A stretch of DNA of 64,000 nucleotides from Escallonia rubra. Its lineage: Eukaryota > Streptophyta > Magnoliopsida > Escalloniales > Escalloniaceae. This document shows positions 12,505 through 56,375 of the stretch, piece after piece. Within the stretch, counting starts at the first letter, position 1. The number at the start of each line of letters is the position of its first letter. The position numbers were made by a program, and so were the translations under genes. The notes beneath the pieces were generated by a model. It did not search any database. It was given only the letters and a program-made list of their open reading frames with translations, and had not been told where the DNA came from. The DNA lies in contig JAVXUO010000129.1 of the NCBI GenBank assembly GCA_033065855.1, positions 1-64,000 of the forward strand, in the 5' to 3' direction.

Positions 12505-15500
12505 TCATGCTTGGCTCTGCAATGTCGGATGTTGAGCAATAGTGGTGAAGTTCATAGATTTTGTTTGAATGGCATGTATTTGTTCTAAAGTCTCCAAAAC
12601 TTCTTCCACCCCAGGCCGGTTCCTAGGACGATCTTCAAGACATTTCAGTGCAAGTGTAACCACAGCTGATAAAACTTCATCTTTTGGACGACAGTCATGT
12701 TCCAGTCGTTGGTCCAATATACTTCTCAAATTTCTTTTGCCAGTTAAGAAACGCTTGACATATCTTACCAAATCAAGCTCCCCGTTGGGGCGATCCATAT
12801 CAAGCACTCGCAGGCCTGTTAGAATCTCCAACAATGTCGCTCCAAAACCGTAGATATCACTCTTCACAGTCAAATAACCTGCCAAATTTAGAGTGGTTAA
12901 CTTTCATGATTTTCCAATGTCATTGTCGTGATACATAATCGGTCCAAACCAATCAAGATCTAGAGTTACCCCATGATAAACCATTATTTACGCCATTAAG
13001 AGAATAGAAAAGGAAATGTCCAGTACAAAATACATAGAGTTAAGCTCGTAATTACTCTGCATTCAATAAGAACTTGGGGCCTAGCAGGAACCCTACAAAA
13101 CTGGTGGCTTAGAAGACCCTCTTGACAATTGTTGAAAAGAGACTCCAATTTTGGTACTAAGATAGACTTAAATCTACGTTCCGTATAATTTGGATCCTGG
13201 GATGACTCGTGTTATTTTGGAGAGGGCTTTAATCGGATGGAATAACAGATTGCTTGATTTTGAGATATGAAAATAGAATGATTATGATAAATATGGTAGC
13301 TCTAAAGTAGTGCTGGGACCATATGAATGTTTGATGTGTTTTTGAAAAAGATGCAGAATTTGTAACCTCCTTCCGTGCCTACTTTGTCCTTGCTAAGAGA
13401 ACATGCGCGCGAGGGCACATCAAAAAGTAAGGCAACTTACCAGTGGCAATATACTCGGGATCTACATAACCAACGTCCTTTCGCGGAAAGTCTATAAACC
13501 CAGTGTCGCCCTCAATTAATGTTGAAAAGACTGACGGGCCGCCTGTTGGACTCGAGTTGGCCAATCCAAAATCCGAGAGCTTTGCATTGAAATCCTAGAA
13601 AAAGTATTTGACAGGTGGAACGGGGAGCTTAGTAAGTAAGATAGAACCACATGATGGTCAAAATTGTTTAATCAATCACATGTCCAATGTACCATGTCAA
13701 GCAATATATCAGAAGCTTTAAAGCTGCGGTACATAGCTTGCTCCTTTGTTCTGTGCAAGAAGGAAAGGCCTCGAGCTGCTCCTCTCGCTATATTAAGACG
13801 TGTAATCCATGGAAGAAGATCCGCATTATCTGCAAATGCAACATTTTATATCTACATCAATTGCTATATTATTCAACTAACAACCATTTATTTAATCAGT
13901 ATCTGCAAATTTTGACGTATTGGCTTACGATTAAAAAGGTGATGTTCTAGGCTTCCCTTCTGCACGTATTCAGAAACAAGGAGGAAATCTTTGTCTTCCA
14001 AGCAGTATCCCAAGAGTTTAACAAGATTGGGATGACTAAACTTTCCCATGAACTTTACCTGTCCACAAATGTATGAGGATAGTACTCGAGACAACAAATT
14101 AGTAAAACTCATCTTCTTTATTTATGGCCGCGAAAGGGAGTCAACCCATGTAAATAAGAAGTACAAGAAACACTACGAAAAATTGGAACCTGCTACAACT
14201 AGCATGGAGCTTGAGAGGCATCAAAAGCTTGTTAAAGTTTATCCTCTTACTACACATTCTCAAGGTAAATATTGCTTTACTGGTTGTTATTCGTTTGTAC
14301 CATCTTCTCCACTTCATTCAAGACTGATTTACGTTTCGCTCAAATATTTTCCTACATTTTTCTTTCTTTTCTTGTGTCCTTCCAAGAAAGCATAAAGGAG
14401 ACAACTCTTGCAAAATTGACAATTTTAAGTTTGTCAAGATAGGAGCAATAAAGATGTACTTGAGCAAGATCAGGTATGTCGTTACCAGTCTTCAACATTC
14501 GTCCTCCTCATAGATTAGACATTATTTCAGTATAACCAACATTTCCCCTGTTATTAAGAACATCATGTATGTATGTATGTATGTCAAGTAGCAATGTGTC
14601 AGTCCTTACTATTCAAGTTGGGTCTGGTATGTGAGATCAAAACAAAATTGAAGTCCAAAACAAAGCGTAGCAGGAGAACCACTGCCCTAAGATACTCGAT
14701 CTTGTGAGATTGAGTGAAATAAAGAAAAGAAAAGATGAGGCCACTCAAAGATTTGATATAAACTCTGCCTTACTTGGATGTCCATGATCAAACTGAAATT
14801 TCTTCAAGGAGCTGGCCATTTATTTAATGTCTTTCGCAATTAAATTAATTAAGATGGCTAACATGGACTTTGAAAGCAAATTTACCTTTGCCTCTTTAGG
14901 TCCTACATGGCCATTCAGATTTAATTTTTTAACAGCGACGGCCATTCCAACACCAGCCTGAGACGGAGCATATGTTTTCTCATGAACCCAACCTTTGAAA
15001 ACTATTCCAGAATCTCCCTTGCCTAACACCATGTTGGATCCGAAGTTGCCAGTTGCCCTTTTCAATTCAGTGAACGAGAACACTCTGAAATTTTGAGCCA
15101 CAACTTGGCCACTCGACATTCGGCTGTTATAGCCATTGCTTCCGTTGCTTATGCCATTCTTTGATGATTTTACACCATTACCTGAAGCATAAATATAACT
15201 AAATATAAGATATACACTAAAAGTACGACACTTTTGAGAATGCCAGTGCAAAAGCTCAACAATTTATGCATTCGATCACAGACCAAAAATCCATAATGTG
15301 AATCTAATGGAAATTCAGGAAAAGGCCTACTCGTATTGACACATTTAGTCTACTAGATGGTCAGTATAAGCAGATATAATAAATCCTGGAAACAACAACT
15401 CCGAGGATCCCTGAAAAACTGAGACGTTTCTGTGTAATTTTTTTACAGAGTGATCTGCTTGAATGAAAGAATGTTCCATGCGAAAGCTAACAACAATATG

Positions 15501-18500
15501 AACAGGCCACTGGGTGCTCTTGGGACAACACAATAGCAGGGAGAAGAAAACCAAGGTTAATCCTTTATTTCCTTTCTTTCAACTTAAAGGAAAAGAGAAA
15601 AGGAAGAAATAATGATGCAAAAGGAGATGTTTTTGGCTCTAAGGGCATAAAATATATGGTCCAGGAGGCACAACGAATGATCGATTCTTAAGTCTAGAGT
15701 TCGAAGAAAAGCTCTCCGACATCATAGTCTTTCCATCCCCGTGTTTTTTCTGATCATTTTCCCTTTCATTTGAGTAGTGGAGGTTTAAGGTAAGGGAACA
15801 TCCCATTTCATAGTGAAATTATGTGGCTTAAGGAGCCAGCTTTTTTTGAATATGGTGAGGAGTGAAGGCCTAGTTGGATGAGGTTTGGGAGTGTGAGCTA
15901 TACATTGCCAAAGAAATTAAACTTATCCACATACAAGTAGCAAGGGATATGGTAAGATTTAAGAACATTGTAGGTAGTTTTTAGAGTGCCAATTGTTTCT
16001 TCGGATCACTTATAAAAACACCACTGTCATATCTTTGAATTGAATGGGGTTGAAAGTGGGGACATTCTTATAACTGTAGAGGTTATTTTGACTCCCAACA
16101 ATATCATCGCTACAAGAAATGACTATCATTGTACAGAAAATAAAATGGATATTGAATGATATTAAAAGTCCTAAGTTAATATTTTGAACTTTAGTACTGA
16201 TGCTTGCAGGAAAAATAAAACTCTAAAAGTGAACGATAGAAAACTTTAAAAAGATCTTTAAAGTTGCAGCCGCTAGATTTGTTACCTAAGCAATTGAGCC
16301 TTCATATGTGACCTACTAGATCTCGAGTTCATTTGATTTTGGATTTTAAAGATGTAACATTTAAGCTCCTAAATTCATTTCGTTTTACAAACATTATTAT
16401 ACATTTATTAGTCATATCTCCTTCCCATAAGACACTTTACTTTCGACAATCCTTTTTGGCTAGATTTTTGAACTTTTGTTAATATCAATTATAATTCAAA
16501 CTTATCCTCAGTTTCACTTCTTAGACTTATAAACATGCCATAGAAAATGCATTACAAGAAATTTGACAACTCTAATATATATACTTGACATTAATTGTCT
16601 CTAAAGCACTTTTTTTACTTTTATAACTGTAATGTCAAACTTGTAGTATTTGGTGCGAGTTAGATATTTGTGAAAAATGTTTGAAACTGATTTCACTCAG
16701 TCTACGTTGGATAGCAAGACATAATATAGAACAGTCAGGATTCTTTTTAGCGGCAACTTGATGTGACATAAGAATAAGTATGCTATAAATATTAGTGATA
16801 ATTATCATAAACAATTCGGGCTTAAAAATAAGACCATATTTTGTGCAATGAGCTTTCCGCTACTTCAAGTCTTTGATTAATAGTTAGTAACTGATTTACT
16901 TATTATGATTTAATTATTATAATTGTATTAATTAACTTTAATTGTGTTTTTCATCAAGGTTTATAACATTTTTATCTTCGAACTACTATATAACGTACAA
17001 AATACGTGATCATTACTAGTAGAATAAAAAAGTGTAAAAATGATAAATATAAAAAACATCAATTTTTTTAAGCCAGCCCCCAAAAAAAAAAAATCTAATA
17101 AATTTGTTGAGATGGAGGAAGAGCAAGTATTAGCTAAAGACGTAGCACTAGGTGAATATAAAACGCAAAAGTTTGTTAATAGTTAAAGACGTTGCAGTAG
17201 ATGAAGGGTTCAGTTTTAACCTGAGGAAAGCGAAAATAAGCAGCTAGACAACAGCTCCTTCCATGAGAATTTCAGGCACCGAGCCGCACCGCAAAAATCT
17301 AAACCCGACAGTGGAAGCAAAAGCAAATCACCCTCATCCACGCGACCCGCACTAAAGTGGAGGTCCAAAGACAGCTCGTCAAAAGGCTCACTATTATCAC
17401 GACAATCATGAAACTCTTCCTGGTCATGCCCCCAATAACCAGGATCACCTGTTTCCCGTTCCTCGGAAGAACTAATATTCTCTTGCTCCGCATAAGCCTT
17501 GCTAGTGTCGCTACTCCCACTACCAGCATCGACCAAACCCAGTTCCGTAAGAGATTCCAAACCTTTAAGCTGACTAATCTGATCAGTCAGCTCATCGTGA
17601 TGCCCACCATAACTAGTTTCAACAACCTCCTGTTCTTGCAAAGCCAATGTAAACTCGAGCTTGGCCACGACCTCGGCCATAGTAGGCCGTTCCATCGCTT
17701 GCACCCTCAGACATTGCTCCGCAATTTGCATAAACTCACACAAACGGTCGGCCGAGATCTGCCCCCGTATCTTAGGATCAACAATTTGATCCGTTCCTTC
17801 GCTAATCGAAGATAAGGCCCATCTCGCTAGACTCCGTTTTTCCTCCTCATCCACTTCTGAATCCACGGCTGGTCTCCCGCACAATACCTCAAACAGCACT
17901 ACTCCAAATGCGTACACATCGGATTTAGTCGTCGCTATGTTTGTCAAGATATACTCCGGGTCTAGGTAACCAAAGGTGCCCTCAAGCGCTGCTCTGCTAG
18001 GTACATTATTCTCAATCCCAGCTATCTGGCATATCATGGACAAACCGAAATCTGAAACCACAGCTTCATAATTATCGTCCAGTAAAATGTTGGAGCTCTT
18101 CACATCACGGTGTACGATCGGGCACCCCGCACCACTGTGAAGGTAATCTAGTCCACGCGCCACGTTCACGCATATCTTCAGTCGCCGTACCCAAGACAGA
18201 AAAGAATCGGGGTTTCCGCTGCCGTGGAGGTGACGAGCTAGGGTTCCGCGAGGCATGTACTCCTGAACGAGAGCCAGCTCGCGGTCGTCGCAGTAGCCGA
18301 TCAGAGAGACCACGTGGCGGTGGCGGATCTGCGACAGGACCGCAATCTCCGACCTGAATGTCTCGAGTCCCCGGCAGGACACGGACTTCCACCGCTTTAC
18401 GGCGACGGTAGTCCCGTCTCCGAGCGTTCCTCTGTACACCATGGCGGATCTGCCTCCGCCGATGAGCAGCGTGTTGTCGAAGTTTTTGGTGGCCGATTTG

Positions 18501-18604
18501 ATCTCGGAGAGCGAGAATCGGCGGCAGATCTGGTCGGGCGACCATTCCAACGGCGGTTGGTTCTCCCGGCGTGAGTGGAACTGGTTTTGCAGTTGAGCAA
18601 GCAT
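12505..18604 (-). CDS. TKP1: cytoplasmic tandem kinase (CrRLK1L-like kinase + RLCK-VII-like pseudokinase)
   Basis: Six exons on the minus strand: 18,604-17,221, 15,181-14,886, 14,058-13,929, 13,829-13,693, 13,594-13,441 and 12,878-12,505. All introns are GT-AG, phases 1-0-1-0-1, giving 824 aa. Kinase 1 (about residues 30-325) is CrRLK1L/FERONIA-like: Lys70 in VAVKRW, HRD at 165-167, DFG at 185-187; the third P-loop Gly is Ala (GGGRSA). A linker with [11 protein letters not shown]-type motifs spans about 330-461. Kinase 2 (about 493-800) is RLCK-VII/PBS1-like: LGKGDSG loop, Lys546 in AVAVKK, DFG at 657-659. Its catalytic loop reads YRSFKASD, so the catalytic Asp is Ser639 and the metal-binding Asn is Asp644: a predicted pseudokinase. 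No signal peptide or membrane segment is seen. Without splicing of intron 1 (2.04 kb), translation stops one codon past the donor and only kinase 1 is made. The alternative is two separate genes. Confidence 0.75.
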
Positions 18605-18664
18605 GACTGAATGTGTTTGGTCAAGAAAAGCTGATCTGCCAATGGTACTCTTATAAGGTCAAGG

Positions 18665-23038: not shown

Positions 23039-23058
23039 TTAGCGAGATGACCTCGCGT

Positions 23059-23188
23059 GCCTCAACCTTCGTAGCCCCTTTTTGCTCAGCCGATCGCACA
23101 TCTTCCCCCTCGACGGTCGGCATGCCTCAACCTTTGTAGCCCCTTTTTGCTCAGCTGATCGCACATCTCCCCCCTTGGGGGTTGGCGT
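23059..23188. repeat. 65-bp direct repeat at the edge of a GC-rich island
   Basis: Two tandem copies containing TAGCCCCTTTTTGCTCAGC and GATCGCACATCT (23,059-23,123 and 23,124-23,188). The sequence is unusually GC-rich from here to about 23,570, in an AT-rich setting. Long ORFs exist in several frames on both strands, but they are low-complexity Pro/Arg/Ala reading frames and match no family I know. It may be part of a decayed retroelement. Confidence 0.6.
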
Positions 23189-24174: not shown

Positions 24175-24209
24175 TATGTTTAGTCCATCAACAAAGTGAC
24201 TCGAGTCAA

Positions 24210-24479: not shown

Positions 24480-24707
24480 TTAGAAATCTCTCTTTTGCAA
24501 GTCCAATATCCAATATCTAGACTTGTACACGGAAATGTAGCTGTCGCGGCCGATGCGTATGGACTCGTGGAAGTAGTTGGTGGCGCGTCTGATCTCGTCC
24601 AAGGAGAAGCGGAGGTAGATTTGCGACGACGACCATTCCGGCGAGAGCTTTGACGACTCGCTATTGTTCTTGTTGCGGCAGAACTTGAGAAGTAGGCGGT
24701 CGAACAT
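24480..24707 (-). pseudogene. Kinase-1 N-terminal remnant (unit 1)
   Basis: The minus-strand ORF starts MFDRLLLKFCRNK and runs through PEWSSSQIYLRFSLDEIRRA, matching the [20 protein letters not shown] region of TKP1 kinase 1. It reaches a degraded P-loop (IRIGRDSYISVYKSR) and then loses similarity and stops. About 60 codons of kinase 1 remain, with no catalytic core. A corresponding remnant lies upstream of TKP2 at 33,989-34,371, so a truncated third copy was part of the duplicated unit. Confidence 0.75.
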
Positions 24708-27900: not shown

Positions 27901-30900
27901 TCACGCTTGGCTTTGCAACGTCGGATGTTGAGTACTAGTGGTGGCGTTCATTAATTTCGTTTGAATGGCATGTATTTGTTCTAAAGTCTCCAAAACTTCT
28001 TTCACTCCAGGCCGGTTCTTAGGATAATCCTCAAGACATTTCAAAGCAAGTGCAGCCACAGCTGATAAAACTTCATCTTCTGGAAGACAGTCATGTTTCA
28101 GTCGCTGGTCCAATATACTTCTCAGATTCCCTTTGCCAGCTAAGAAAGGTCTGGCATATTGTACCAAATCATGCATCCCATCGGGGCGATTCATATCGAG
28201 CACTCGCAGGCCTGTTAGAATCTCTAGCAAAATTGCTCCAAAACCATAGATATCGCTTTTCACAGTCAGATGACCTGCCAAATTTAGAGTTAACTTTCAT
28301 GATTTTTCATTGATATTGTTATGATACATAATCAGTCCAAACCAATCAAGATCTAGAGGTACACCATGATGAAACATTATCTACGCCATTAAAAGTACAG
28401 AAAATGAAATGTCCAGTACTGAACATATAGATCAATTAAGAGCACCTGAAAGAGTCAAGCTCTTCATTACTCTGAAGTCAATAAGAACTTGGGACCCAGT
28501 AGGAATCCTGCAAAACTGGTGGCTTTAAAAGACCCTCTGACATTTGTTGAATGTGTTTAAAAAAGGCTCCAAGTGGTACTAGGTCAGACTTAAATTTATG
28601 TTCTATAATTTGATTCCTGGGTTGACTCGTTAGATTTTAAAGAGGGCTTTAATTGCAAGGGGTAGCCGATTGCTTGCTTTTGAGGTAAGAAAATACTATC
28701 ATGTGTATCATTTCATTCTTGGGCTTGTTAAATATGATAGATCTAAACTAGTGCTGGGATCATATGAATGTTTGACATGCTTTTTAAAAAGATACAGAAG
28801 ATGTATAACTACATGTAACCTGGCTCCTGCCTACTTTCTACTTGCTAACATAACATGCGCAAGCGGGAACATTAAAAAGTAAGCAACTTACCACTTGCCA
28901 CGTACTCGGGATCTACATAACCGACGTCCTTTTGCGGAAAGTCTATATACCCAGTGTCGCCCATAGTTAGTGTTGAAAAGATTGACTCGCTGCCTGTCAG
29001 ACTCAACTTGGCCAATCCAAAATCCGAAAGCTTTGCATTAAGATCCTAGAAAATGTATTTGACAGGTTAAAGGGGAAACTTAATAAGTGAGCTAGGACCA
29101 CATGATGACCAAAATTGTTTAACCAATAACAGCGATTCAGTGTACCATGTCAAGCAATATATCGGAAGCTTTAAAGCTGCGGTACATAGCTTGCTCCTTT
29201 GTTCTGTGCAAGAAGGCAAGGCCTCGAACTGCTCCTCTCGCTATATTAAGACGTATAACCCATGGAAGAAGTTTGGCATCATCTGCATATGCAATATTTT
29301 ACATGTACATCAGTTACTCTATTATTTAACTAAGGCATTTCTTTATCAGTATCTGCATATTTTGACGCATTGGCTTACGATTGAAAAGGTAATGTTCTAA
29401 GCTTCCCTTCTGCACGTAGTCAGAAACAAGGAGAAAATCTTCATCTTCCAAGCAGTATCCCAAGAGCTTAACAAGATTGGGATGACTATACTTTCCCATG
29501 AACTTTACCTGCCCACAATACAAATGTACGATGAGTAGAAATCAAGACAACCAATTAGTGAAACTCATCTTTCTTTAATTTTTTGGCACCAAAAGGAGCG
29601 AACCCATGTACATAAAAAGCATACAAGAGATACTAAGAAAAAGTGAAACCAGCCTAAAAAGCTACACAAGGCTGTCGCTAAAGGCCAACAAAGAATCTGA
29701 AGAAACCATCCCTGAGCCAGACACCCAACACAACTAGCATGGAACATGAGAGGCCCCAAAAGCATGTTGAAGTAAGTTTATCCTCTTATTTGTACAATTT
29801 TCTCCACTGCATCCAAGATTGATTTACATTCCATTCAAACATTTACCTACATTTCCCCCTCTTTTCTTACGTCCTTCCAAGAAACCATGGAGGAGGCAAT
29901 TCTTGCAAAATTCTCAATTTTAAGTTTGTCAAGATAGGAGCAATAAAGACTGTACTTGAGCAAGATCAGGTACATTGTTACAAGATATCAACATTCATCC
30001 TCCTCATAATTTCCTCATTAATTGATTACAAACAACATTTCCCCCTGTTGTTAAGAACATCATGAGTGTACTTCAAAGAGCTACCGTCAGTCTTCACTAT
30101 TTATGTTGAGTCTGATATGTGTGATCAAGATAAATTTGAAGTCCAAAACAGAGCGCAGCAGGAGAACCACTTCCCTAAAATACTCAATCTTGTGAAATTA
30201 AGTAAAATAAATAAATGAAAGGATGAGGCCAGTCAAAGATTTTATATAAACTCTGCTTTGCTTGGATTTCCATGATCAAACTGAAATTTCTTCAAGGAAC
30301 TGGCAATTTTAATGCCTTTTGCAATTAAAATAAGGTGGCTAAAATGAACTATGAAAATAATTTACCTTTGCCTCTTTAGGTCTTACATGGCCATTCAGAT
30401 TTAATTTTTTAACAACGACAGCCATTCCAACACCGACCTGCGATGGGGCATATGTATTCTCATGAACCCAACCTTTAAAAACTATTCCAGAACCTCCCTT
30501 GCCTAACACCATGTTGGGTCTGAAGTTGCCAGTTGCCCTTCTCAATTCAGCGAATGAGAAAACTCTAAAACTTTGAGTCACAACTTGCCCACTCAACATT
30601 AGGCTGCTACTGCCATTGTTGTTGTTGCTTTTGCCATTCCTTAAGGGTTTTACACCATTACCTGAAACAAACACGTAACTAAATATAAGATATACACTAA
30701 AAGGTAGGACACCAGTGCAAAAGCTCAAACTTGTGCTTCTATCACAAACCGAAATATCTTAATGTGAACCTAATGAGGATATTCAGGAAAAGGCCTATTT
30801 GCATCGACTCATTCAGTCTACTAGATGGTCAGTATAAGCAAATTTAAATTTAATAAATCCTGGAAACAACAAGTCTGAGGATCCCTGAAAAACTGAGACG

Positions 30901-33117
30901 TTTCCGTTTAAAGTTATTACAGAAAGACATTAACAGGCCAGTGGTTGGTCTTGGGACAACATAACAGCAGGTAGAAAAAAAATCAAGATCAATCTTTTAT
31001 TTCCTTTCTTTCAACTGAAAGGAAAAGACAAAACTCAAAAGGAAGATATATTGATGCAAAAAGAGAAGTTTCTGGCTCTAAGGGCATTAAGTATATGGTC
31101 CAGGAGGGACAAGGAATAATCGATTCTTAAGTCCAGAGTTTCCAGATAAGCTCTCCGGCATCATAGTCTAACCCTCACCTTGTTGTTTCTGATCATGTTC
31201 TCTCTCATTTGAGTAGTGGAGGTTTAAGGTAAGGGAACATTCCATTTTATAGTGAGATTATGTCGATTAAGGGGCCAGCTTTTTTAATATGGTGAGGAGT
31301 GTGGGCTTTACATTGGCATCAAGAGACAACTCAGTGGAGGACCCCCCCGGGGGGAGGGGGGGGGTGGTTGGTTTGTCGCCTTTGGCAGAGGAAAGTGGAT
31401 AGGGATTTGGTAAGATTCAAGAACTCCGTAGGTAGCTTTTAGAGTACCAAATGTTTCTTCCGTTCACTCATACTGGTGATACATTTATTTGAATTGTATG
31501 TGTTGAAAGTTGGAAGTTCTTGTATAGTCTCTTCCCTCAAACCAGCTTATCAGGACCTTTTCCTAGTTGTATTTGATTGACATATTGAGGCATGCTATTG
31601 TACTTGGCAGACATGCATAGTATAGTATTTAAGTTCCTTCAAGAATATCAGATATCATTGCACCAAGTTAAAGTTTGTTAATATTTAAGGGCGTTGCACT
31701 AGATGAAGGGTTTCAGTTAACCTGATATAAACGAAACTGGGCTGCTAAAACACAACAGCATCTTCCTTGAGAATTTAATGCTCTGAGGCACAACGCAAGA
31801 ATCACCCAACTGTAAATTATCGTCAACCTGCTCCTCATGATGCCCACTGGTACCAACATTGATAACCACTTGTTTCAGAAATTGCTCGCGACAAGCCTCA
31901 CTAGTATTACTAATCCCTCCAATCTGTTCCTGGTCATGCCCACAATAACCAGGATCACCTGCATCCTGTTCCTTGGAAGAATCAATATTCTCTTGCTCGT
32001 CGTAAGCCTTGCTAGTATCGTTACTCCCACTACCAGCATTGACAACATCCTGTTGTGTAGGAGAATCCACATCTTCAATATGGCTAATCTGATCAATCAG
32101 CTCATCGTGATGCCCACCATAACTAGCTTCAACAACCTCCTGTTCTTGCAATGCTAATATGAGCTCGAGCTTGACCACGACCTCAGCCATGGAAGGGCGT
32201 TCCCTCGCTTGCAGTCTCAGACATTGCTCCGCAATTTGCACAAACTCCCACAAACAATCAGGCGAGATCTGCCCCTTTATTTTGGGATCAACAATTTGAT
32301 CCGTTCCTTCGCTAATCGAATTCACGGCCCATCTTGCTAGACTCCGTTTTTCGTCCTCATTCACTCCTGAATCCACGGCTGGCCTCCCGCACAATACCTC
32401 AAACAGTACTACTCCAAACGCATAGACATCGGATTTAGTTGTCGCTCTGTTTGTCAAGAAATACTCCGGGTCTAAATAACCAACTGTGCCTCTAAGCATT
32501 GCTCTACTAGATGCATTATCCTCAATCGAAACTATCTGATCTATCACGGACAAACCGAAATCCGAAACCCTAGCTTCATAATTATCGTCCAGCAAAATGT
32601 TGGAGCTCTTCACGTCACGGTGTATGATCGGGCACCTCGCGCCATTGTGAAGGTAGTCTAGTCCACGCGCCGCGTTCACGCATATTTTCAGTCGCCGCGC
32701 CCAAGGCAGCAAAGAATCAGGGTTTCCGCCGCCGTGGAGGTGACGAGCTAGGGTTCCGCGTGGCACGTACTCCTGAACGAGAGCCAGCTCGCGGTCGTCG
32801 CAGTAGCCAATCAGAGAGACCACGTACCGGTGGCGGAACTGCGAAAGGACCACAATCTCCGACCTGAATGTCTCGAGTCCCCCGCCGGACACGGAGTTCC
32901 ACCGCTTTACGGCGACGGTTGTCCCGTCTCTGAGGGTTCCTCTGTACACCGTGGCGGATGCGCCTCGGCCTACGAGCAGCGTATCGTCGAAGTTTTTGGT
33001 GGCTGATTTGATCTCGGAGAGCGAGAATCGACGGCAGATTTGGTCCGGCGACCATTCGAACGGCGGTCTGTTCTTCCGGCGTGAGTGGAACAGGTTTTGC
33101 AGTCGAGCAAGGGCCAT
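27901..33117 (-). CDS. TKP2: cytoplasmic tandem kinase (CrRLK1L-like kinase + RLCK-VII-like pseudokinase)
   Basis: Minus-strand exons: 33,117-31,722, 30,661-30,366, 29,508-29,379, 29,282-29,146, 29,045-28,892 and 28,274-27,901. Exons 2-6 have exactly the TKP1 lengths (296, 130, 137, 154, 374 nt) and phases. The product is 828 aa from the Met shared with TKP1 ([14 protein letters not shown]); an in-frame ATG at 33,183 would add 22 aa, but that frame is not open in TKP1. Kinase 1 has Lys in [14 protein letters not shown] and DFG; its P-loop is GRGASATV (third Gly replaced by Ala). The linker carries [22 protein letters not shown] and GHHEEQVDD motifs. Kinase 2 keeps Lys (VVVKK) and DFG, but its catalytic loop is YRSFKASD, the same loss of catalytic Asp as TKP1. 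Intron 1 is 1.06 kb and contains a poly-C/poly-G tract. An unspliced message stops one codon past the donor. No membrane anchor is seen. Confidence 0.75.
31342..31364. repeat. C-run/G-run tract in TKP2 intron 1
   Basis: Seven C are followed by six G, an A and nine G. The tract can fold on itself or form a G-quadruplex. TKP1 has no such tract at the matching place. It may be a remnant of a fold-back element like the one at 11,830. Confidence 0.8.
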
Positions 33118-33988: not shown

Positions 33989-34371
33989 TCACATAAACAT
34001 TGGAACTGTAATTTGTATTCGCTTACTAGGATCCAAGACTTGAAAAGAGATGGCAGAATAACTGATAACAGAGACGACATGCCTGTATCGAATACCGGAA
34101 AGAAGCTCAACCTCTGACCGAAACTCGGTGGTTTCTTGTCGGGAGTGGGAGCTCCTGCACTTTAATTGCAACATTGGTTTCATTCTCCAGGACTCCTTCT
34201 TATACCGGCCCATAGCCACTCCTGCCGGATGAGCATTGCACTGTCGAAGTTGTTGGTAGTCCATTTGATCTCATCGAGTGTACGTAAAACAACGACATAT
34301 CTATTTAGGCGACCATTCTGCCGGCTTGTTCTTACGGCAGAAGTTCACTATATTCGCTACTCGGTTAAACA
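33989..34371 (-). pseudogene. Kinase-1 N-terminal remnant (unit 2)
   Basis: From an ATG at 34,371 the minus strand reads MFNRVANIVNFCRKNKPAEW and SPK, then a stop codon, then ICRCF, matching the start of kinase 1 ([12 protein letters not shown]). A second stop follows. Further on, TTEFRSEVELLSGIRYRHVV matches the alpha-C region of kinase 1, with the P-loop part degraded. The catalytic half is missing. It corresponds to the remnant at 24,480-24,707 in unit 1. Confidence 0.75.
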
Positions 34372-34659
34372 TGCTTTAGTACTGCTAGATGGCAGTTGAA
34401 CAAAAAATATTGTGCAGCAGGTCCGAGGGGATGACTAGAGAGCTGCAAGTCAGTGTCCTCCAGGATGAGATACTCTTGTTCGTTCTACTGTCAAAAAAGG
34501 TGCCAATTCCTGTTCTGCCTCGGAAGTTTCCAATGTTCAGATGGTGGTTTTGACCTTTTGTTTATTGTTTTCCAAGAACAACTGAATGTATCTCAGTCAA
34601 ATATAGAAAATGAAGGAGAAAAGTCTTCTTTCTCGGGATGATCATTCGGCACTCCCCAT

Positions 34660-45385: not shown

Positions 45386-45406
45386 GGATCGAGTTCTTCT
45401 AAGGCT

Positions 45407-45689: not shown

Positions 45690-45950
45690 CTTTGTAGAGC
45701 GGACTGCCCAACAGAAAACCAGCCTCCAACACTTATTTTTCCAATTTTGAAAACTGAAAAAAAAAGGAAAAAAAAACCGTGTCAAACGGTCCCTTATTAT
45801 TTTTTTTTTTTTTTGGTTTTTCTCTACATCCGCTATATAGTATAGCGGACGTCCAAGCAGAAAGACAACTTCCAACACTTAGTTTTTTCTTGGTTCTCTC
45901 TACGTCCGCTATACTATATAGCGGACGGCCAAGCAGAATCCAACACTTAG
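45690..45950. repeat. Palindrome repeats, copy B (counterpart of array 2)
   Basis: One degraded unit is followed by two palindromes (45,827-45,849 and 45,904-45,926), each followed by CCAAGCAGAA and CCAACACTTAG. Copy A has eight units here, so copy number is variable. Confidence 0.8.
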
Positions 45951-46183
45951 TTTTTTCTTGCCCACACGTTTTTTCCCACCGGTCAATGACAACTACATAT
46001 CAGTCAATGAGCCAAAATGCTATATTTGACCACAAATCAAACACTCAACTGAATTCAACAACACAAAGATATCGGTCAATCAAATCAATCGCATTCAACA
46101 CCGATCAACTGATGTCAACACAAATCAAATCAATCGCATTCAACGATAAGGACAATTAAAAAAGTGAATATAATGTTACAATG

Positions 46184-49100
46184 TCAATTGGGGCCCTCAT
46201 CCCTTGCGGGATCCTCATCATTACACGGATTTACAATAAACCTAATAGCTCTAGGCCGGCCATTGATAATTTGCCAAGCCATCCTATACCTAAAGCCTTG
46301 TATGCATTCTCGGCTCCAGACGGTCTTCTTGAGGCTCTCAGACCGGCAAATATAATCCATGTACATGCAGACGAAGACGCCGCAGTCCGAGGAATTATGT
46401 TGCTTAGGCCTACTCCTCTTCAATCGGAAAATGAGATTCGGCCTGACCGCTGCCCTCTCTTGACGCCTACCATTGACCAAGGCAGCAAATAGATTCTGCG
46501 AGAAACATAATAAGCATTAAACATTAAACATATCAAAAATAATAAGATTAATCAGTTTTACAATATGCAAGTTACAATAAGAAATAAACAAGATCTTACC
46601 ATGGCATCCAACTGGCCTATGCCTCGGTACATTTCAATCACACCCATCACGGAGGTATCATCGTAGAGACTGTCGATGACTGATACCGTCACCTTTACTG
46701 GTTCATAGCAAACCAAGTACCAGTGGGCATTCCCTATAAATGGGATTAGAAACACGTCGGAAACACTTGCGCTCACTGGACTATCCCTAGCAAGATATGC
46801 TTGTAGGTTAACGGACGGTCTCCACTGGGGCTGGGCTCTCCCCTTTCTCCCCTTCCTTGAATTGCTCCAGTCGTCCCACTCTTGTACTAGGATGCCATGA
46901 AAAAAGCATCAAAGAGAAAAATGAGCGGACCGAAGTTTGGCTGCTCCCGACACCTTTGCCTCAGAATTTGCACGTAGTGCGAGATGACACCGTTGTCTAA
47001 CCAAACTCCCGGCGCCAGTGAGGCCAATTCTGTCCACAAGGCAATGTAATCCAAGCCCTCCGGGTGATCCACATCATATGACGCTCCGTCTTGGGGGGGC
47101 CCGCTAAAATAACGGGCTCGAATTAGCTCAAATTTATGCGGCTTTAGGGGCCTGGCTGGATGCCCTTTCGGATATTGCCCTCGGGGGTTGATCGGCAAAT
47201 CTTGCCCTCCGCCGGGGGGCAAGAGCAAGGGATAGTGGCCTCCAAAAAATGGTTCGGCTAGCTGATAATCCCCTTCGGGGGGCCCCAACCGGCTGATATA
47301 GCTCTCCGGCCATTTCTTCCACCGGTTGATATTGCCCTCCGGAGGCGCCAAGTGGTCCCGCCCACGGGACAATGGGCAGTGCCTCGGAGAAACCGTAGTT
47401 TCCGAAAGGCCAGTCTTGCATGACTTGACTCTGAGAGAGGGGTTGGGGTTCCGGGAACAAATTGAAGGAGGGGCCGCTGTAATCGCCCCACGATGCTTGA
47501 GCCTGCCACATCCCCGCTACAGAGGGACCACCAACTCCCTGGCTCACCCCCGAAGCCTGTCCCGAGGGATCACCGTATCCCTGGTTGACGCCCGTATAAC
47601 CCATTCCCGGGCTGACGACCGAAGACTGTCCCGATGCTTGGCGCACAAAATTCCCGCAGCCTAAAGCCAGTGCAGCAGCCTGTTGGCGAAGATCCTCGCC
47701 CATTGCGCTCACCAGAACCTTCCGCTCACTCAACTTCTGGAAGAATGCAAGCGAGGCATTGACCTACATCCAAAGAGATAAAAAAATAAGTAACTTCAAT
47801 CAGACATTTATATTCAACAAATTCAAGAGAAGTCAGACTGGTTGGGCAACTTACGAGATTGTATGCCATACGCTCATCGATCTGACCCCTAGGCGCATAT
47901 CTCTCCCCGCGTTTAAAGTTTACTGGGGCGACTCTCCTCCGCGTGATGCGGTAGTACCACTCGTCGTACTGTTCGATGCTGATAACGGGGTCCGGCTCCA
48001 AGACGATGGCCGCCAGTGTGTCCTGCCAAGAACTCCAAAGCTCTATTTCGGCCGCGCACAATTCGTGCGCATTGGCCTTGCCAAACAGTCCAACATCCGG
48101 TGGGTCCCTGTTAACCCTCATATCTGGGGCATCGGCTGGCAAACCTTGCTCCAACTCAAAATGGCGCATTGCTCGATCTGGCAGCTGCCACTCTGCGACC
48201 TCGAAGTGGATCAGGGGTGTGCGCTGCAACCCGGAGAGCGTGAAGACGAACGACTCTCCCACCCGTCGCGCCAAACGTATGTACGGTGCCCAACGCATTT
48301 GGCCCGGAGATGGACGATTGAACTCCCCCCGATAGTACGTAATGTTGTGATGGGAATCGACTCTCCTGCGGTAGTGGCTATCCCCCGGCTGTACTTCCAA
48401 GCACGCAACCGAGGCCACACTTTATCGGTTCCATCCCTACGCGTTGGTGCACCGGGAGCAAGGTGTTCATAAGACCACACCTGAAAGCACGGGCAAGTTA
48501 TATTGATATCGTCGATTCAACAAAAAAAAAAAAAAACAATAACGAAGCCAAGATTTATATGGTATTCCTGCAATAGCGAGAGACATGCACATATGGCTTT
48601 GGCGTCGGGCCTCATTGCCTTGTGCAATGCTCGGTACAGATACAAAAGAACCTCTGCACCCCAGGCATAATCCCCAACCTCCGACAGGTTACCCAACAAC
48701 GGTAAATATTTCACGCTGGCCGTGTTCTTCGACGTCGTTGGGAATAAAATTGCCCCCATCACCCACCAGATGAAGGCTTTTGTGTAAAGCAGAAGCTCAC
48801 GTCCCGTATAGTTTTCCGGCAAAACCCCGTAGGTATCTACCAACCACTTCAACTTTATACCACCACTGCTAAATTGATCTTGGGGTATCGAAGTGAAGAA
48901 GTCCCTAGCGGTTCTCTTATTCGTTGTTTCTGACGGAGGAGCAATTACCGACCTCCCCGTCACCGGTAACCCTAAGATGAACCCTACATGTTCTAGGGTA
49001 ATTGTCATCTCTCCGAGTGGGAAGTGAAACGTATTCGTTTCACTTCTCCACCTTTCAACAAGGGCACCTATCAAGGCCCGATCAAGTTGTTGAAATATCT

Positions 49101-49378
49101 GCCCATGCGTGAAAATCTCAAACCTAATTCCACGCTTTCTGGGAGGTGTTCAGTTTCCATAATGTGAACTCGCGAGATACTTCTACGGTGGTGAGAAGTT
49201 CTCTTTCCTACGAATTAACACTTACAATTTAAGCAAAACAAACGGTATACAATTGTTCGTAAGAATAAGAAAGTTGATAAATAATGTATCTTACTCCACC
49301 ATCTCATATGAGCGTACTGATATGGTTGGCTTGGTCGTATAACACGGATGGATCTTCGGGTCCAGGGTTAAATTCCAT
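46184..49378 (-). pseudogene. PMD-ULP1 gene, copy B: at least two frame disruptions
   Basis: Same exon plan as copy A. ATG at 49,378; the plant mobile domain runs through about 49,074-48,517 and 48,477-47,862. The linker/protease region runs 47,770-46,601 and the last exon about 46,494-46,184. The C48 triad is present (NAHWYLVCYE, VIDSLYDD, SSDCGVF). One extra C at about 47,283, in a run where copy A reads GGGGCCCCCGAAGG, shifts the frame in the linker. A deletion of about 8 bp near 49,135 disrupts the start of the mobile-domain exon, and the frame between the 46,887-47,372 and 46,558-46,776 segments also breaks. The site of the copy A frameshift is intact here, so the lesions arose independently. 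Confidence 0.8.
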
Positions 49379-49780
49379 TTTTTGCAATTGAAATTATGAA
49401 AAAACCTTCTCAGTTTGGATTTTACGGTTTGGATTTTGATAATCGCTCGCAAAAATATGAGGCTAGCACATGCATAATACATACAATGTTAGCATATACA
49501 CTCATATGTATAATATATATATATACATATATAGAATCGGATTTTACAAATGCTAGCACATGAACAAATACATACATATATAAAATGCAATATTCATCAC
49601 AACTATCGATTACAAACAAAAAAAGTATAGATTTTGTGAACTTACGTGATCTATTAGGGTATTAAAGGTGTTCTTAAGAAGGAATTGCGCATATCTGCTT
49701 GCCAACGCCCCTGGGAAAATTTGTGAGTAGAAACAATGGAGAAGAGTGTCGTAGTTACTGTTTTTCGAATATCAATTACA

Positions 49781-50033
49781 CGTCCGCTACACTGTATCGC
49801 TGACTATTACGTCCACCACATTGTATAGCGGACTCTGTTGACGTGACATGGCCGTGGCGGGCGACGGGACAGGACCTGACAGATGTCAGCCTAGGGGACG
49901 TCCGCGACACTGTATAGCGGATGCCTTTTTGCTGTCCCGTGTCAGACTTCAATGTCGTCCGGGATACATTATAGCGGACAGGGCGGAGGGGCAAAAAGGT
50001 AAAAAAGTCCGTCCGCTATACAGTGTGGCGGAC
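49781..50033. repeat. Palindrome cluster, copy B (counterpart of array 3)
   Basis: Five degenerate palindromes of the GTCCGC...GCGGAC class, including GTCCGCTATA-N3-TGTGGCGGAC at 50,011-50,033. They lie upstream of PMD-ULP1 and about 400-660 bp upstream of TKP3. Confidence 0.8.
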
Positions 50034-50057
50034 AACTGACAGTATTCGAAAAAGGCA

Positions 50058-50147
50058 CGATCTGGGCTGTCCATCTTTCAGGATGGACGGCCAGATCGCG
50101 CTAGCAAAATAGGCTATTTTGCTAGCGCTCTCAACAGATCAGCTCCC
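50058..50147. repeat. Right terminus of element B with two adjacent palindromes
   Basis: CGATCTGGGCTGTCCATC pairs with GATGGACGGCCAGATCG. Directly after it comes a perfect 31-bp palindrome at 50,098-50,128 (15-base arms GCGCTAGCAAAATAG and complement around one G). The end reads CTCTCAACAGATCAGCTCCC, followed by an AT run, as in element A. Confidence 0.7.
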
Positions 50148-50445
50148 ATATATATATATATATCAAAAGTCAAAAGTGATATTATGTTTTATCAAAAGTC
50201 AAAATTATTTTGATAATCCGAACAAGTCACTATTTTCTTTTAACAATTATCCATCCGCTCTAAAATTTCACGGGCATAAGTGTCCTTTTCTCTGTTCAAG
50301 TCAACGCGGCTACTTTTAAAGCCCGAGTCAAGACGCGTAATTCCGATTACCGACGGTCTACATTCCACCGGAAACGGCGACTACAATCTCACTTTTATCT
50401 TCGTTAACATCCGGGAGCAGCTATTGCTGTTTCAATTCGGTAAAT
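50148..50445 (+). promoter_or_regulatory. TKP3 upstream region
   Basis: Only about 300 bp separate the element B terminus from the TKP3 ATG. The region has an AT run, then CAAGTCAACGCGG and GAGTCAAGACGCG. The GTCAA core is the complement of the W-box core TTGAC bound by WRKY factors. TKP4 has a similar upstream sequence (AGTCAAGTCAAGCCGCG at about 59,194). WRKY control is a guess from short motifs. Confidence 0.3.
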
Positions 50446-52521
50446 ATGCTCCACCTTCACATAATATATCTGCTCCTCCTTCTCTCGTGTCCGATGATTA
50501 CCTCCGCCGCCAGCAACTGCCGTTGCGCCGACACCAACACCGCAGCCATAAAAAATGTGTGGCTTGTCCTCAAGGCAATTGCCTATCGCATAGTGATCGA
50601 CGTTCTTATTTTGGATATAATCGTTTATGAGCTCAGGAAGTTCTACGAATCGAAGTTCCGCGAGGAACAGAAACCGTCGATACTGCCGCCCGAGAATCTC
50701 TGCCGTCGATTTTCGATCGGTGAGATCCAGTCGGCTACTAACGGCTTCGACGATAGATTGTTAGTCGGACAGGGCGGATTCGGACCCGTGTTCAAGGGGA
50801 TTTTGGATAACGGTGCCACCACCGTTGCGGTAAAGCGGCTGAGTCCCAAGTCTAATCAAGGAGCGCCTGAGTTTTGGAATGAGATCGAGATGCTATCGAG
50901 GTTTCGGCATAGTAACGTGGTTTCGCTGGTAGGTTATTGCTGTGATTGCTATGAAATGATTCTCGTTTATGAGTATAGTCTGCTTGGTAGCCTTCATGAT
51001 CATTTGCATAAAATGGTTAAAAACGGTAATCCTAGTCTGTCTTGGGTGAAACGTCTTGAGATATGCATTGGGGCAGCGCGTGGGCTGGATTACCTTCACA
51101 CTGGCACGGGTGTAACGCGCGGAGTCATACATCGCGATGTGAAGAGCTCAAACATTGTGTTGGACGAGAATTGGGCTGCTAAGATTTCAGACTTTGGGTT
51201 GTCCAAGGTAGGCCCAGCAAACCATTCGTTCTCGTATGTCAGCACGGATGTGAAAGGCACATTCGGCTATCTGGACCCAGAATATTTTGTGACGGGCAAA
51301 CTGACGACTAGATCCGATGTCTACAGCTTTGGGGTGGTGTTGTTAGAAGTACTGAGTGGGAGGCCTGCGGTGGATATGAGTCTCGATGAGGAGCAATGGG
51401 GTCTAGCTAGATGGTCGCAACGTTGCATCAGAAAAGGAGTGCTAGACCGGATTATTGATCCAAGTTTGAAAGGGAAAATCATGCCAGATTGTTTGATGGA
51501 GTTTGCAAGAATTGCGGAACAATGCTTGCATAATCATCCCAAGAAACGCCCTAAAATGACTGAGGTCGTGGCCAGGCTTGAGTTTGCATTGGCAATGCAA
51601 GAGAATGTGAATTTTTCTGGTGAGGTAATTTTTGCTGGTTGGCCTCATTACAACCAAGAGAAAGCGGATTCTTCTAGAGAAGATGAAATTGCCAATGCTT
51701 GTAACGGGGAGTATCACAACGAGCAGATTAATGGGATTAGTGATTCGCGTGGGGCTTATGAACACGAAAAGAATGAAGATCATTCTACAGGACATCGCAT
51801 TCTGAGTGTTAATAGCGATGGGCATCATGACAAGCAGATCGATGGGATTAGTGATTATACTTCAGCTTTTGACAGCGAAGAAAATTCATATAATTCCTTT
51901 ACACCACAGAAACTTAGCAGTGCTTGTAATAGTGAAAAGTATGACGAGCAGATTGATAGGATTAGCAATCACAGTTGGGCTGGCGGCAATGTAAAGAAAA
52001 CAGATTTTGTTGCGGGTAGGATAAAGGACAAGCAGATTGATATCAACCAAGATAACAGAGATCTGAATATGGAACAGGAGGCTGTCAATGTTGCACCCTC
52101 CTTGCAGACTCCTGCAATTTCACGATTGGGCGACGCAAGTGGCGGGCAATTACACATTGAGCTGTCCAAGGTGAAGATTAGTCTGCTTTTTACACACACA
52201 GTTTGGCAGATTATGGGTAAAGCTGAACTCTTCATCTGTAATATTGATATTGTGTAGATGCGGAGCTTATGGCAATTTATCAATGAGTACAAAAGGCAAA
52301 GAACAAACAATGTTCCAAAAGGTAAGCTTCAGTATAGATCATAGTCCAGAAGGTAAGCTCCAGTATACATTATGATTTCAGAAAGGTAAACTCTGCTCTA
52401 CGTGTACTGGTATCCAGTAATTCTATTGCCAATATTGACTTGGCACTTGATTCGTATGGACTATGTAAACCTAGATCTTTACCCCTAGAAAGTTGAAATA
52501 GAAATTAGCTACATGTATATT

Positions 52522-52562
<41 letters not shown>

Positions 52563-55500
52563 CACAGAGGCGGTTCAATCTTTTCAATACATGTTCATCA
52601 ATTTCATGTGTCAGGTTGTGATGCGAAGCCATCAAGAAACTGCACTGATGATAGTTTGTTTCTGAGTGGGAATGGTATGGCTCCATATTTGAAGGAGTTT
52701 ACACTTGCTGAATTGAAAATGGCGACAAGGAACTTCAAGCTGGAGGAGAAATTGGGCGATGGAGGTTTTGGCAAGGTTTTCAAAGGCTGGGTCGATTGCA
52801 TGACATATGCCCCCTCAAAAGCCAGCATTGGAATGGCTGTCGCGGTTAGATATCTATGTGGCTTTCACATATCTAAGGAGGTGGAGGTAAACAAACACAT
52901 ACCTTAAGTTTGAAGAGAGAATAAGATGCAAATCTTTTATCGTTCATTTTGTTCCTTAATTATCGTTCTTCAACTTGAAAACAAGTCATCTACATTTATA
53001 TTTATCATTCCTATCTTATGCTTCATGAGTCTATTCTAGATTCTAGAAGTATCTGTAATACTAATTTGATATGAACAAGCTGAAAGGTTAGGGAGGTCAG
53101 AACTACTTTACCAAATAGCATATATGTACTGTTAAGCCCACTCATGGAAATACTTGTACGTAAGAAGTTGCATAATTTTCACTCCTTGAGAATGACACTT
53201 GGCAGTGTATAAGTAGTTCAGAATAACTGTAATCACGGATCTCATGTGTTGCTTGGTAGTGCAGTTTCACAAGCAGTTTCGCTTAAGATCTGAATTTAAG
53301 CGTGCTTCTTGTCACAGAATCAGTTTTAGTTTTAGCAACAGAAATCTCCTGCTCCAATGCTTTTCAAATATGGTGCTTCTTGGATTTTCTTGCACATAGA
53401 CTTGAAATTCTTTAGCATAAATTATTGAAGCATAATTTTTAGTTCCAATTTCTATCAAGATAAGTTTTTAGAGGGCATCGTGATACAAACAGGTCATCAA
53501 TGCTATGATTTCACTGGTCGTCCCACTTGCATCTTATTTCTCTTCGTACTTGTGCAGCTTGCCATTTGTTTCCTGGGCAATTAGTGCACATTGCTTGTCT
53601 TTTGTTGAAATGTCATGCCATACGCGGCTCGGCTGCATTTAGGGATGTCAAAGAGTGACATACATCTTTGGCCCATCAGTTCGGCGGACATGACCCTTTC
53701 AGTTTCGGATAATTTCCTTTATGTACCGTCTAGACATCTGTAGAAAGATTAATAACAATATTCAGGGAAAAGTTTCACGTAGATAAGAGTTACAAATTGA
53801 ATGGAGTGGAATCAATCCCTTAGTTAGGTTTGAAACGAGAACTGCAGCTCGCGAGGAAATTGCCACAAGATTGATTTGTTTGAATTTTTATTCAAAATAC
53901 TAATGCTTATGCACGTATTAGTAATATGTTTTCTGGTATTGAAAGAGCACATTGAAAGGAAAAGTCAAGGAAAAAATGATTGTAGTGCGAACAGTACGTG
54001 ATTTTAAAATGTCTTTGTTTGTGGAAACAAAATCATTCATTTTGCATTCTTGAGGAAGGAAATATCATGGAAATAATATAAAATCGATCTAATCTGGAGG
54101 ATCATAGTAGTTGAATCACAGTACAATCTTCATTAACTAGTCAATTTGTTTGATTTTGGCGGTAAATTTTTGCCTGCAGTCAGAGGCAAAGTTCTTTGGA
54201 AAGTTTAATCATCCAAACCTTGCTAAGCTCTTGGGATACTGCTTCAAAGACAGAAATTTCTACCTCGTTTATGAATACATGCCAAACAGAAGCTTAGAAA
54301 GCTGCCTTTTCAGAAGTAAGATATAATTGAAAATATCTAAATACTAATTCTCAATAGAGACAAACTGTGTGAAAGCAAGTTGCATTTGCAGGAAACTTAA
54401 CACTTCCGTGGGATGCCCGGATCAAAATAGTGGCGGGAGTAGCTCGAGTTCTTGCTTTCTTGCACACAACAGAGGAGCATATCATTCACCGCGACATTAA
54501 AGCTTCCAATATATTGCTAGATGCGGTATATTTGAGCTGTTTGGATTGCTTGTTGGTTTTTATGTGAAGCCATATTAATCACCCAGGTGGCTTACTGCTA
54601 AATCTCTATCTTTACTGTATTATTTTAATTTTCCAGGAATTCAATGCAAAGCTTTCGGATTTTGGGCTGCTGCCTAAGTTAGATCCAGCAAATGGCCAGT
54701 CACATGTTACTATGAGAATGCCGGGCAGCTATAGTTATGCAGCTCCCAAGTGTCTGGCAGCAGGTAATTTACCTTATCTTCTTCTCTCGTGCTATAGCAG
54801 CATCCCCATGCATGTGACAATTTAAGGGCTGGTAGAGGGTAATTTGTTTACATCTAATTCTTCACCTTTATTCAGCGTATGCAATTTTATGGTTTCTTAA
54901 AATGTTGGCCATGGCTTCATCTCAGCTATGTCTTTGTCTGCGATAAAACCTTGATAAGGCTTTATTTATATCCATGGTTAACTTTAGTTGCCACCACATA
55001 TTGCCCACAGTTTCGCCCCATCACATTTTCTCATACCTTTATATCTTGTAGTTATGCAATATCTTGTTGTAAACTTCTTTCTCCAGCACTACCACACCAC
55101 CAAACATCTGTGCAATGAACCATGACCACCATATCATTACCTCAATCCGCTTTATCAAAATAACTTCACTTCTATGATTCAAAGGCCAATACCCTCCTAG
55201 TTGTATGAGCACCTAGACAATTTTCCATTATAAGAACCACCTCTTCCTAGCTCCACTTCTCCCCAGTTGCTCCCTCAGCAAATTTTTCTCAGTTTTAGCG
55301 ACTGAATACATAATCGATTAAGAGCGAGAAGCCACCTATTGACTTCATCTGTACTTGTAGTGTTGCTGTGAAGTGTAACCATAAAAATGTTCATGTTTCT
55401 ATGTATGTTGTTCCCCATGTAATGAGCAAAGCATTGCAACCCACTGTTTAAACACTTGGAACAGAGTATCCACATCATACGAGTAGACAATTCTTGGGAG

Positions 55501-56375
55501 TAGGACGAGTTCCTGGTCTTTTAATCCTTTATGCTTGTCTTTCACTTCTTTTGCATTTTCGTTCACATACATAAGCACTAAGCAGAATGATGTTGCACAT
55601 ATGCATGGGCACACTCATATTTTGCACCTGATAAAAGCAGACCTTTTATACAGAGGAGAGCTGCGGTGACGATATGCATGAGTTGAGGGCTTTAGATGTG
55701 GGAATGGATTATGGTTGCTTACTAAAAAAAGAATGACAAAGAAATATATACATGACTGAAAAACAAGAATAAGGTTGGCTATACTAAAAACTTTTATGAG
55801 AATATTATTCTCATAAAAGAAGGGGCGAACCTATGCGCATTAGAACGTTCACCGTGCAGAATACAGAAGGTGGCTATGCTAAAAACTTGATGTACGAGCA
55901 TATATCCTGCTATAATAAACCTGACTGGTTTGACATTATCTTTCTTGACCACGAATTATTTGGAAAATCATGATAATTGACCCAGTCCACTTGGGCAGGT
56001 CAGCTGACTAAGAAGAGTGACGTTTATGCTTTTGGAGTGTTGTTGCTGGAAGTGCTTATGGGCTTGCGGGTGATTGACATAAATCGGCCTCCTGGCAAGC
56101 ATAATGTAGTGAATCTACTGAGGCCTTTCCTAGATAGAGGAGAGCTGGGTACTATAATGCACCGGAGGCTAATAGGCCACTACTCTCCAAGAAGTGCGTT
56201 CAAAGTGGTACAACTAATTCTAAAATGCCTAGAAGGTGACCGTAGAAACCGGCCAACAATGAAAGAAGTCTTAAAGATCTTAGAGCAGATTAACGACGAT
56301 GAATCCAAAGGAGAACTCCAAAGCCAGTGCATGCCAACCCACTGTGCAATGATAAGAATGGCGCCCGACCGATGA
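50446..56375 (+). CDS. TKP3: membrane-anchored tandem kinase (CrRLK1L-like kinase + RLCK-VII-like pseudokinase)
   Basis: Exons: 50,446-52,216, 52,615-52,886, 54,180-54,315, 54,392-54,525, 54,637-54,763 and 55,999-56,375; GT-AG, phases 1-0-1-0-1, 938 aa. A signal peptide (residues 1-22) and a hydrophobic segment (about 38-61) leave an ectodomain of only about 15 residues, with no malectin domain. Kinase 1 (about 88-385) is CrRLK1L-like and looks active: GQGGFG loop, Lys130, HRD 229-231, DFG 249-251. The linker (about 390-590) has three to four repeats of about 38 aa with cores such as [25 protein letters not shown] and [11 protein letters not shown]. Kinase 2 (about 617-910) is RLCK-VII-like with GDGGFG, HRD 759-761 and DFG 779-781. 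However, the ATP-binding Lys is Arg669 (VAVRYL) and APE is APK, so it is probably inactive. The donor after exon 1 is ATGG|GTAAAG; reading through it stops at 52,257, giving a kinase-1-only protein. Confidence 0.75.
52526..52560. repeat. TA microsatellite in TKP3 intron 1
   Basis: About 17 TA units lie 54 bp before the exon 2 acceptor. Length variation here could affect branch-point spacing and intron 1 splicing. Confidence 0.9.

Follow-up and report, generated by a model that had tools for sequence, protein, structure and literature searches.

Positions 1 to 64,000 of a 65,474-base contig of Escallonia rubra (JAVXUO010000129.1, here C2762), a stretch that we call the window, carry three genes in each of which an exon for a kinase resembling the CrRLK1L receptor kinases (kinase 1) is predicted to be spliced to exons for a kinase resembling the receptor-like cytoplasmic kinases of family RLCK-VII (kinase 2). 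The original prediction had joined these exons into an array of tandem kinase genes, and model reconstruction reproduced its coordinates, intron phases, reading frames and lengths. G1 occupies positions 18604-12505 on the minus strand (2475 nt coding, 824 amino acids), G2 33117-27901 on the minus strand (2487 nt, 828 amino acids), and G3 50446-56375 on the plus strand (2817 nt, 938 amino acids), and each has six exons, GT-AG introns with phases 1-0-1-0-1 and no internal stops. Exon 1 of G1 (17221..18604) encodes kinase 1 and a linker, lacks a transmembrane (TM)-like segment and ends at the phase-1 donor CAG/GTTAAA, where the slash marks the exon boundary; exons 2-6 (12505..15181; 15181-14886, 14058-13929, 13829-13693, 13594-13441 and 12878-12505) encode a predicted RLCK-VII-like pseudokinase. 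In G2, kinase 1 and the linker (exon 1, 31722..33117) end at CAG/GTTAAC, and a predicted pseudokinase of the same type follows in exons 2-6 (27901..30661; 30661-30366, 29508-29379, 29282-29146, 29045-28892 and 28274-27901). Exon 1 of G3 (50446..52216), which encodes kinase 1 and a repeat-bearing linker, ends at TGG/GTAAAG, and its RLCK-VII-like kinase 2 lies in exons 2-6 (52615..56375; 52615-52886, 54180-54315, 54392-54525, 54637-54763 and 55999-56375). Kinase 1 of G1 and G2 share 83% identity. About 20 bases past the kinase-1 donor are similar in G1, G2 and G3 (17220-17190, 31721-31690 and 52217-52240), though the frame is not preserved.

A fourth unit, G4, which was absent from the original list, begins in the window with its exon 1 (59327..61064, plus strand). 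This exon encodes a hydrophobic N-terminus, a TM-like segment and a CrRLK1L-like kinase 1, and ends at the phase-1 donor CAG/GTAACC; the heptamer CTTCATC found past the donor (61065-61095 in G4) is common to all four units. No kinase 2 was found downstream of G4 within the window. The expectation that G4 is also fused was tested in the 1,474 bases by which the contig extends past the window, where a kinase-2 exon 2 with a phase-1 acceptor was found (C2762:64454-64740); later kinase-2 exons were not found up to the contig end. All four kinase-1 genes on C2762 therefore have kinase-2 sequence downstream, setting aside two short, decayed 5′ fragments of kinase-1 copies on the minus strand (34058..34372 and 24519..24692).

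Sequence comparison upheld the assignment of the two kinases to different families. The best match of kinase 1 among solved structures is FERONIA (355 bits for G3, 288 for G1 and 285 for G4), and the CrRLK1L assignment depends on few references. Unlike FERONIA, the G1 and G3 protein models, the two scanned, show no malectin-like domain; Pfam recognized kinase domains only. Kinase 2 matches BIK1 and PBL2 best (300 and 274 bits for G2, 281 and 274 bits for G3), with FERONIA at 154 and 169 bits, respectively. In a small tree with FER and Pto as references on one side and BIK1 and PBL2 on the other, the two kinases fall in separate groups, and the kinase-2 copies cluster together (support 0.87) beside BIK1 and PBL2. 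This clustering suggests a single origin of the kinase-2 copies, in a tree that held only two RLCK-VII references. Duplication of a kinase domain was rejected as the origin of the pair, as the two kinases belong to different families.

Further units of the same kind occur elsewhere in the genome (566 Mb, 3,222 contigs). The search with kinase 2 scored the best candidates only, so that unit counts are lower bounds. Close relatives were found on contigs C774, C195 and C1402, and from 16.5 kb, 150 kb and 30 kb of these contigs, respectively, at least ten units (U1-U10) were read, three of them broken. Similarity to G1-G3, together with GT and AG dinucleotides close by, was used to set their exon limits, which are less sure than those of the window genes. 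The count leaves out copies of kinase 2 without a visible kinase 1 (C195 near 14-16 kb and C774 near 56-58 kb) and a kinase 1 with a mere kinase-2 fragment (C195 near 102-105 kb). The kinase-1 tail is readable in 13 units, and 12 of them have a phase-1 donor at the equivalent position, the exception being U10; U7 is broken before the donor and its tail is unreadable. The kinase-2 acceptor, read by eye, is in phase 1 in all 14 units. The units are related, so these counts are not independent trials. U5 and U8 are near-identical, as are U6 and U9 (synonymous divergence, dS, ~0.04 and ~0.005), and these pairs are perhaps two haplotypes, in which case the number of independent units is lower. Chance joining of unrelated exons was rejected, the donor and acceptor being common to many units. 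We also rejected a triple kinase on C195: the extra pieces that directly follow kinase-2 exon 6 of two copies (C195:15999-16844 and C195:56647-57489) are stop-ridden kinase-2-like fragments. Contigs C2763, C695, C3135, C3090, C968 and C969 hold large clusters of frames for CrRLK1L-like kinases, ~340-600 amino acids long, which recall the CrRLK1L expansion described for sunflower.

The units vary in their N-termini and linkers. By hydropathy only, kinase 1 is preceded in G3, G4, U6 and U9 by a hydrophobic N-terminus with a TM-like segment, neither of which is seen in G1, G2, U2, U3, U5 and U8. In G3 the hydrophobic N-terminus is signal-peptide-like and the TM-like segment spans residues 37-63. 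The linker of U1 (C195:50830-52303) is a series of short repeats of the LNAADDS type; those in the linkers of G3, G4 and U5 differ, being of the GHHDEQI type.

The strongest evidence that the two kinases were once joined in one message is an intronless copy on contig C2594. Here a single unbroken frame runs from 7460 to an in-frame TGA at 9311, with homology continuing to 9548; it specifies a CrRLK1L-like kinase followed, after a short tail, by an RLCK-VII-like kinase, and all of the kinase-2 introns are missing. Contig C2593 ends in the same sequence, which is cut off by the contig boundary. The junction between the kinases, at 8555/8556, is in phase 1, as in the window genes. Relatives of kinase 1 on C3090, C1861 and C3135 (91-94 kb) match the copy up to ...ACAG and then read GTACTC..., which places a CAG/GT donor at the junction base in all three kinase-1 paralogues read. 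An intron-bearing copy of kinase 2 on C3135 (36.1 kb) starts at the same base after ...TCTCAG, and its exon 2 ends at ...CCAG/GTAAAT, where the C2594 copy reads on. The plain explanation is that the C2594 sequence represents a processed copy of a spliced messenger RNA (mRNA) that held both kinases. Its junction falls at the donor and acceptor bases, so the family, in that branch at the least, once made a fused, spliced mRNA. A run of A lies 3′ of the copy; candidate target-site duplications around it were not convincing, the matches being A-runs and one 10-mer. The junction of the window genes aligns with that of the C2594 copy, yet is not itself frozen in any processed copy. On C3004, search matches to kinase 1 and kinase 2 occur in the same order. 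The kinase 2 of the C2594 copy keeps the catalytic Asp and Asn, with Phe in place of the preceding Arg.

Together with this copy, the conserved splice sites and the equal divergence of the two halves support the proposal that the exons form single genes. Between G1 and G2, dS is 0.233 for kinase 1 and 0.228 for kinase 2, and the ratio of nonsynonymous to synonymous rates (omega) is 0.38 for both. An alternative is that kinase 1 and kinase 2 are separate neighbours, with kinase 1 ending past the donor and kinase 2 using its own promoter and a short first exon within what we model as intron 1. Read without splicing, the kinase-1 frame stops immediately past the donor in G1, G2 and U1; intron 1 contains two AATAAA motifs in each of G1 and G2 (zero in G3); intron 1 of G2 and intron 1 of G3 each contain a possible ATG exon with a fair donor in phase 1, the two sequences being unrelated; and kinase-2 exon 2 contains internal ATGs. 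The number of phase-1 ATG...GT candidates in intron 1 is 33 for G1, 13 for G2 and 11 for G3, compared with means of 24, 14 and 4.5 in shuffled sequence, so that an excess is seen in G3. Intron 1 of G3 does not align with that of G2, and aligns with that of G1 over the first 20 bases only. RLCK-VII genes normally begin with a short exon coding MGxC. However, a phase-1 MG..C first exon is absent from intron 1 of all three genes, where the one MG candidate, in G1, is two residues long and has a poor donor. Furthermore, the place and phase of the donor are constant in the 12 units noted above, whereas the length of the unspliced read past it varies by unit, from an immediate stop to ~20 codons or more, and in the C2594 copy kinase 1 meets kinase 2 at the exon-exon boundary. 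With no MGxC exon and with the junction frozen in that copy, we rejected separate neighbouring genes, which we regard as very improbable, while leaving room for minor separate transcripts from the ATG candidates and AATAAA motifs.

Several points weigh against the fusion and are set out here together. The evidence for a single transcript is genomic only. A product consisting of kinase 1 alone is possible from unspliced G1, G2 and U1, because their unspliced frame ends right past the donor. U10 is one base out of phase at the junction, and U4 and U7 are broken. The 36-kb kinase-2 copy on C3135 has lost its own donor region, and therefore the donor and acceptor compared with the C2594 junction come from different copies. 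Finally, no kinase-2 exon was found in the 1.1-2.0 kb downstream of the three donor-keeping kinase-1 relatives, some of which may be orphaned. On balance, the sequences support six-exon genes predicted to encode two kinases in one transcript, the two-domain arrangement that characterizes tandem kinase proteins (TKPs).

The two kinases differ in their catalytic residues. The degeneracy of kinase 2 at catalytic positions was not part of the original prediction: key residues are lost in all ten units that read in frame. In nine of these (G1, G2, U1, U2, U3, U5, U6, U8 and U9) the Asp of the HRD or YRD motif is replaced by Ser or Thr and the following Asn by Asp. In G1, for example, YRD becomes YRS, the catalytic-loop Asn becomes Asp and the alpha-C Glu becomes Lys; the alpha-C Glu is also missing in G2. 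G3 keeps HRD and Asn, with Lys to Arg in VAIK and Glu to Lys in APE. Kinase 1 keeps its main catalytic residues in G1-G3, except that the P-loop of G1 and G2 has Ala in place of its third Gly; its HRD motif reads HRH in G4 and HGD in U6 and U9. Kinase 2 is thus a predicted pseudokinase, which gives the kinase-pseudokinase make-up of TKPs. All 13 unit pairs compared give it an omega of 0.19-0.51, some of the dS values being tiny or saturated, and kinase 2 is therefore maintained as a protein under purifying selection. Omega ranges from 0.14 to 1.22 for kinase 1 and from 0.25 to 1.38 for the linker, each defined in 12 of the 13 pairs; for the G1 and G2 linkers it is 1.25. The original prediction had placed a receptor-type kinase and a member of its usual downstream partner class in one chain. 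The family pair stands, but an active partner is unlikely, with kinase 2 predicted to be a pseudokinase in ten of ten units, and a kinase carrying an RLCK-VII decoy or scaffold fits better.

These features suggest a route by which the genes could have arisen and a way in which their products could act. A large, single CrRLK1L-type exon without a malectin ectodomain would have been joined by exon fusion to exons 2-6 of an RLCK-VII gene of the BIK1/PBL type, with a phase-1 intron splicing the two together and the CrRLK1L-type exon replacing the RLCK-VII first exon. In G3 and G4 the TM-like segment would hold kinase 1 at the membrane. The fast-changing linker would carry a pseudokinase resembling BIK1 and the PBLs, a class attacked by pathogen effectors. 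The pseudokinase, we infer, would act as bait, and once an effector touched this decoy, kinase 1 or a partner nucleotide-binding leucine-rich repeat receptor (NLR) would pass the signal on to start defence. An immune function of the fused kinases is probable by analogy with other tandem kinases, and we consider it reasonably likely, with some reservation, that these are tandem kinase-pseudokinase genes made by fusion, with a role in immunity and an RLCK-VII decoy built in. A broader proposal is more tentative: the genes may represent a plant lineage of immune TKPs in which a CrRLK1L kinase holds a conserved RLCK-VII pseudokinase in cis as an integrated effector decoy, encoded in arrays and possibly shared with sunflower and lettuce. 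Such proteins would be a single-chain counterpart of the NLR-linked RKS1-PBL2 pair; PBL2 and RKS1 act with the NLR ZAR1, and the two are named together in solved structure entries.

Purifying selection on a dead kinase suits a scaffold as well as a decoy. The fusion could thus be real and serve growth or cell-wall signalling, in which the RLCK-VII pseudokinase would scaffold the CrRLK1L-like kinase or regulate it allosterically, a role in keeping with the action of the CrRLK1L founders in growth and fertilization. We consider this unlikely, though it is the most credible of the alternatives, since genes that lie in clusters with decayed copies among them, differ in their linkers and either have or lack an N-terminal anchor are, by analogy, more like resistance genes in their evolution. 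Decay of the family raises a different alternative, namely that fused genes were once made and are now mostly decaying, functionless relics. U4, U7 and U10 are broken, U2 shifts frame in exon 6, U1 is open without the start found in G1, the window holds the kinase-1 fragments at 24.5 and 34.1 kb, and the C2594 copy has an in-frame stop. Against this, the joined frame is open from start to stop in G1, G2, G3, U5, U6 and U8, and kinase-2 omega is low in every pair; we judge the relic explanation improbable. Two more units are open through kinase 2, U9 with a changed end and U3 with its end unsettled. An immune tandem kinase with a built-in decoy remains the interpretation that we prefer.

Besides the kinase genes, the window contains a MULE transposase with FAR1-like and SWIM domains at 809-2848 on the plus strand, in two frames split by a stop. 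A plant-mobile-domain element is present in two copies on the minus strand (7542-8093 with 8811-10217, and 47729-49149), and a Ulp1-type protease domain adjoins the first.

With a gene family that joins a FERONIA-type kinase to a BIK1-type pseudokinase, the TKP class would gain a new pair. The family would also illustrate clearly how splicing through a phase-1 intron can create a new protein, with a processed copy as the record. Some RLCK-VII kinases are already known to be effector targets, which would open the integrated-decoy idea to direct tests. BIK1 is named as one such target, RLCK pseudokinases have been proposed as decoys, and a kinase-pseudokinase make-up is described as typical of resistance TKPs (PMC6170490). 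Here kinase 2 has its best matches among solved structures in BIK1 and PBL2, and differs from them in lacking an N-terminal MGxC and in the loss of its catalytic residues.

The fused genes resemble known TKPs in having two kinase domains per chain, usually with one catalytically incomplete, and some of the known proteins are described as fusions of different receptor-like kinase families (PMC6170490, PMC8956640). The combinations reported include WAK with RLCK-VIII in WTK1/Yr15, DLSV with CR4L in Sr60, and DLSV with DLSV in Rpg1, Pm24 and Sr62 (PMC6170490, PMC8956640), and the resistance tandem kinases named in the cited papers come from wheat, wheat relatives and barley. A wheat tandem kinase has been reported to activate an NLR (PMC12839735). 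The Escallonia genes differ in their CrRLK1L and RLCK-VII pair, their clustered arrays and the N-terminal TM-like segment of some members, and their role in resistance is putative. WTK7-TM/Pm36 is also a tandem kinase with a TM segment and was seen at the plasma membrane (PMC11006675); its TM segment is C-terminal, in contrast to the N-terminal position in G3, G4, U6 and U9, and both of its kinases are described as LRR_8B and probably duplicated.

The original prediction knew of no description of this combination. No paper on a CrRLK1L and RLCK-VII fusion was found among the literature matches listed, which cover subscription literature in part and give a weak negative, but dual-kinase CrRLK1L-1 proteins have been reported from sunflower and lettuce, with OrDeb2 and OrAnom1 as the loci concerned (PMC8866362, PMC10884359, PMC11646777), so that the earlier statement goes too far. 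The novelty here consists in which two families are paired, in the second kinase being a predicted pseudokinase and in the arrangement as an array. CrRLK1L-1 proteins of the sunflower OrDeb2 region have two kinase domains, with active-site signatures in one only, and no ectodomain, and their lettuce relatives are also two-kinase proteins (PMC8866362). In sunflower, 67 CrRLK1L-1 proteins are reported to contain multiple kinase domains (PMC11646777), and an H. anomalus gene classed as RLCK-VIIa-2 is 91% identical to part of one dual-kinase protein, although its authors allow for misassembly or annotation error (PMC10884359). The published descriptions of the sunflower and lettuce proteins, on which our comparison is based, match the Escallonia genes in a first kinase without a malectin domain, a second kinase without active-site signatures, and clustering (PMC8866362). 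They differ in a length of 662 amino acids, in having no TM segment and in reporting each half as homologous to Arabidopsis CrRLK1L kinases, and state neither an RLCK-VII nature of the second half nor how the exons are joined.

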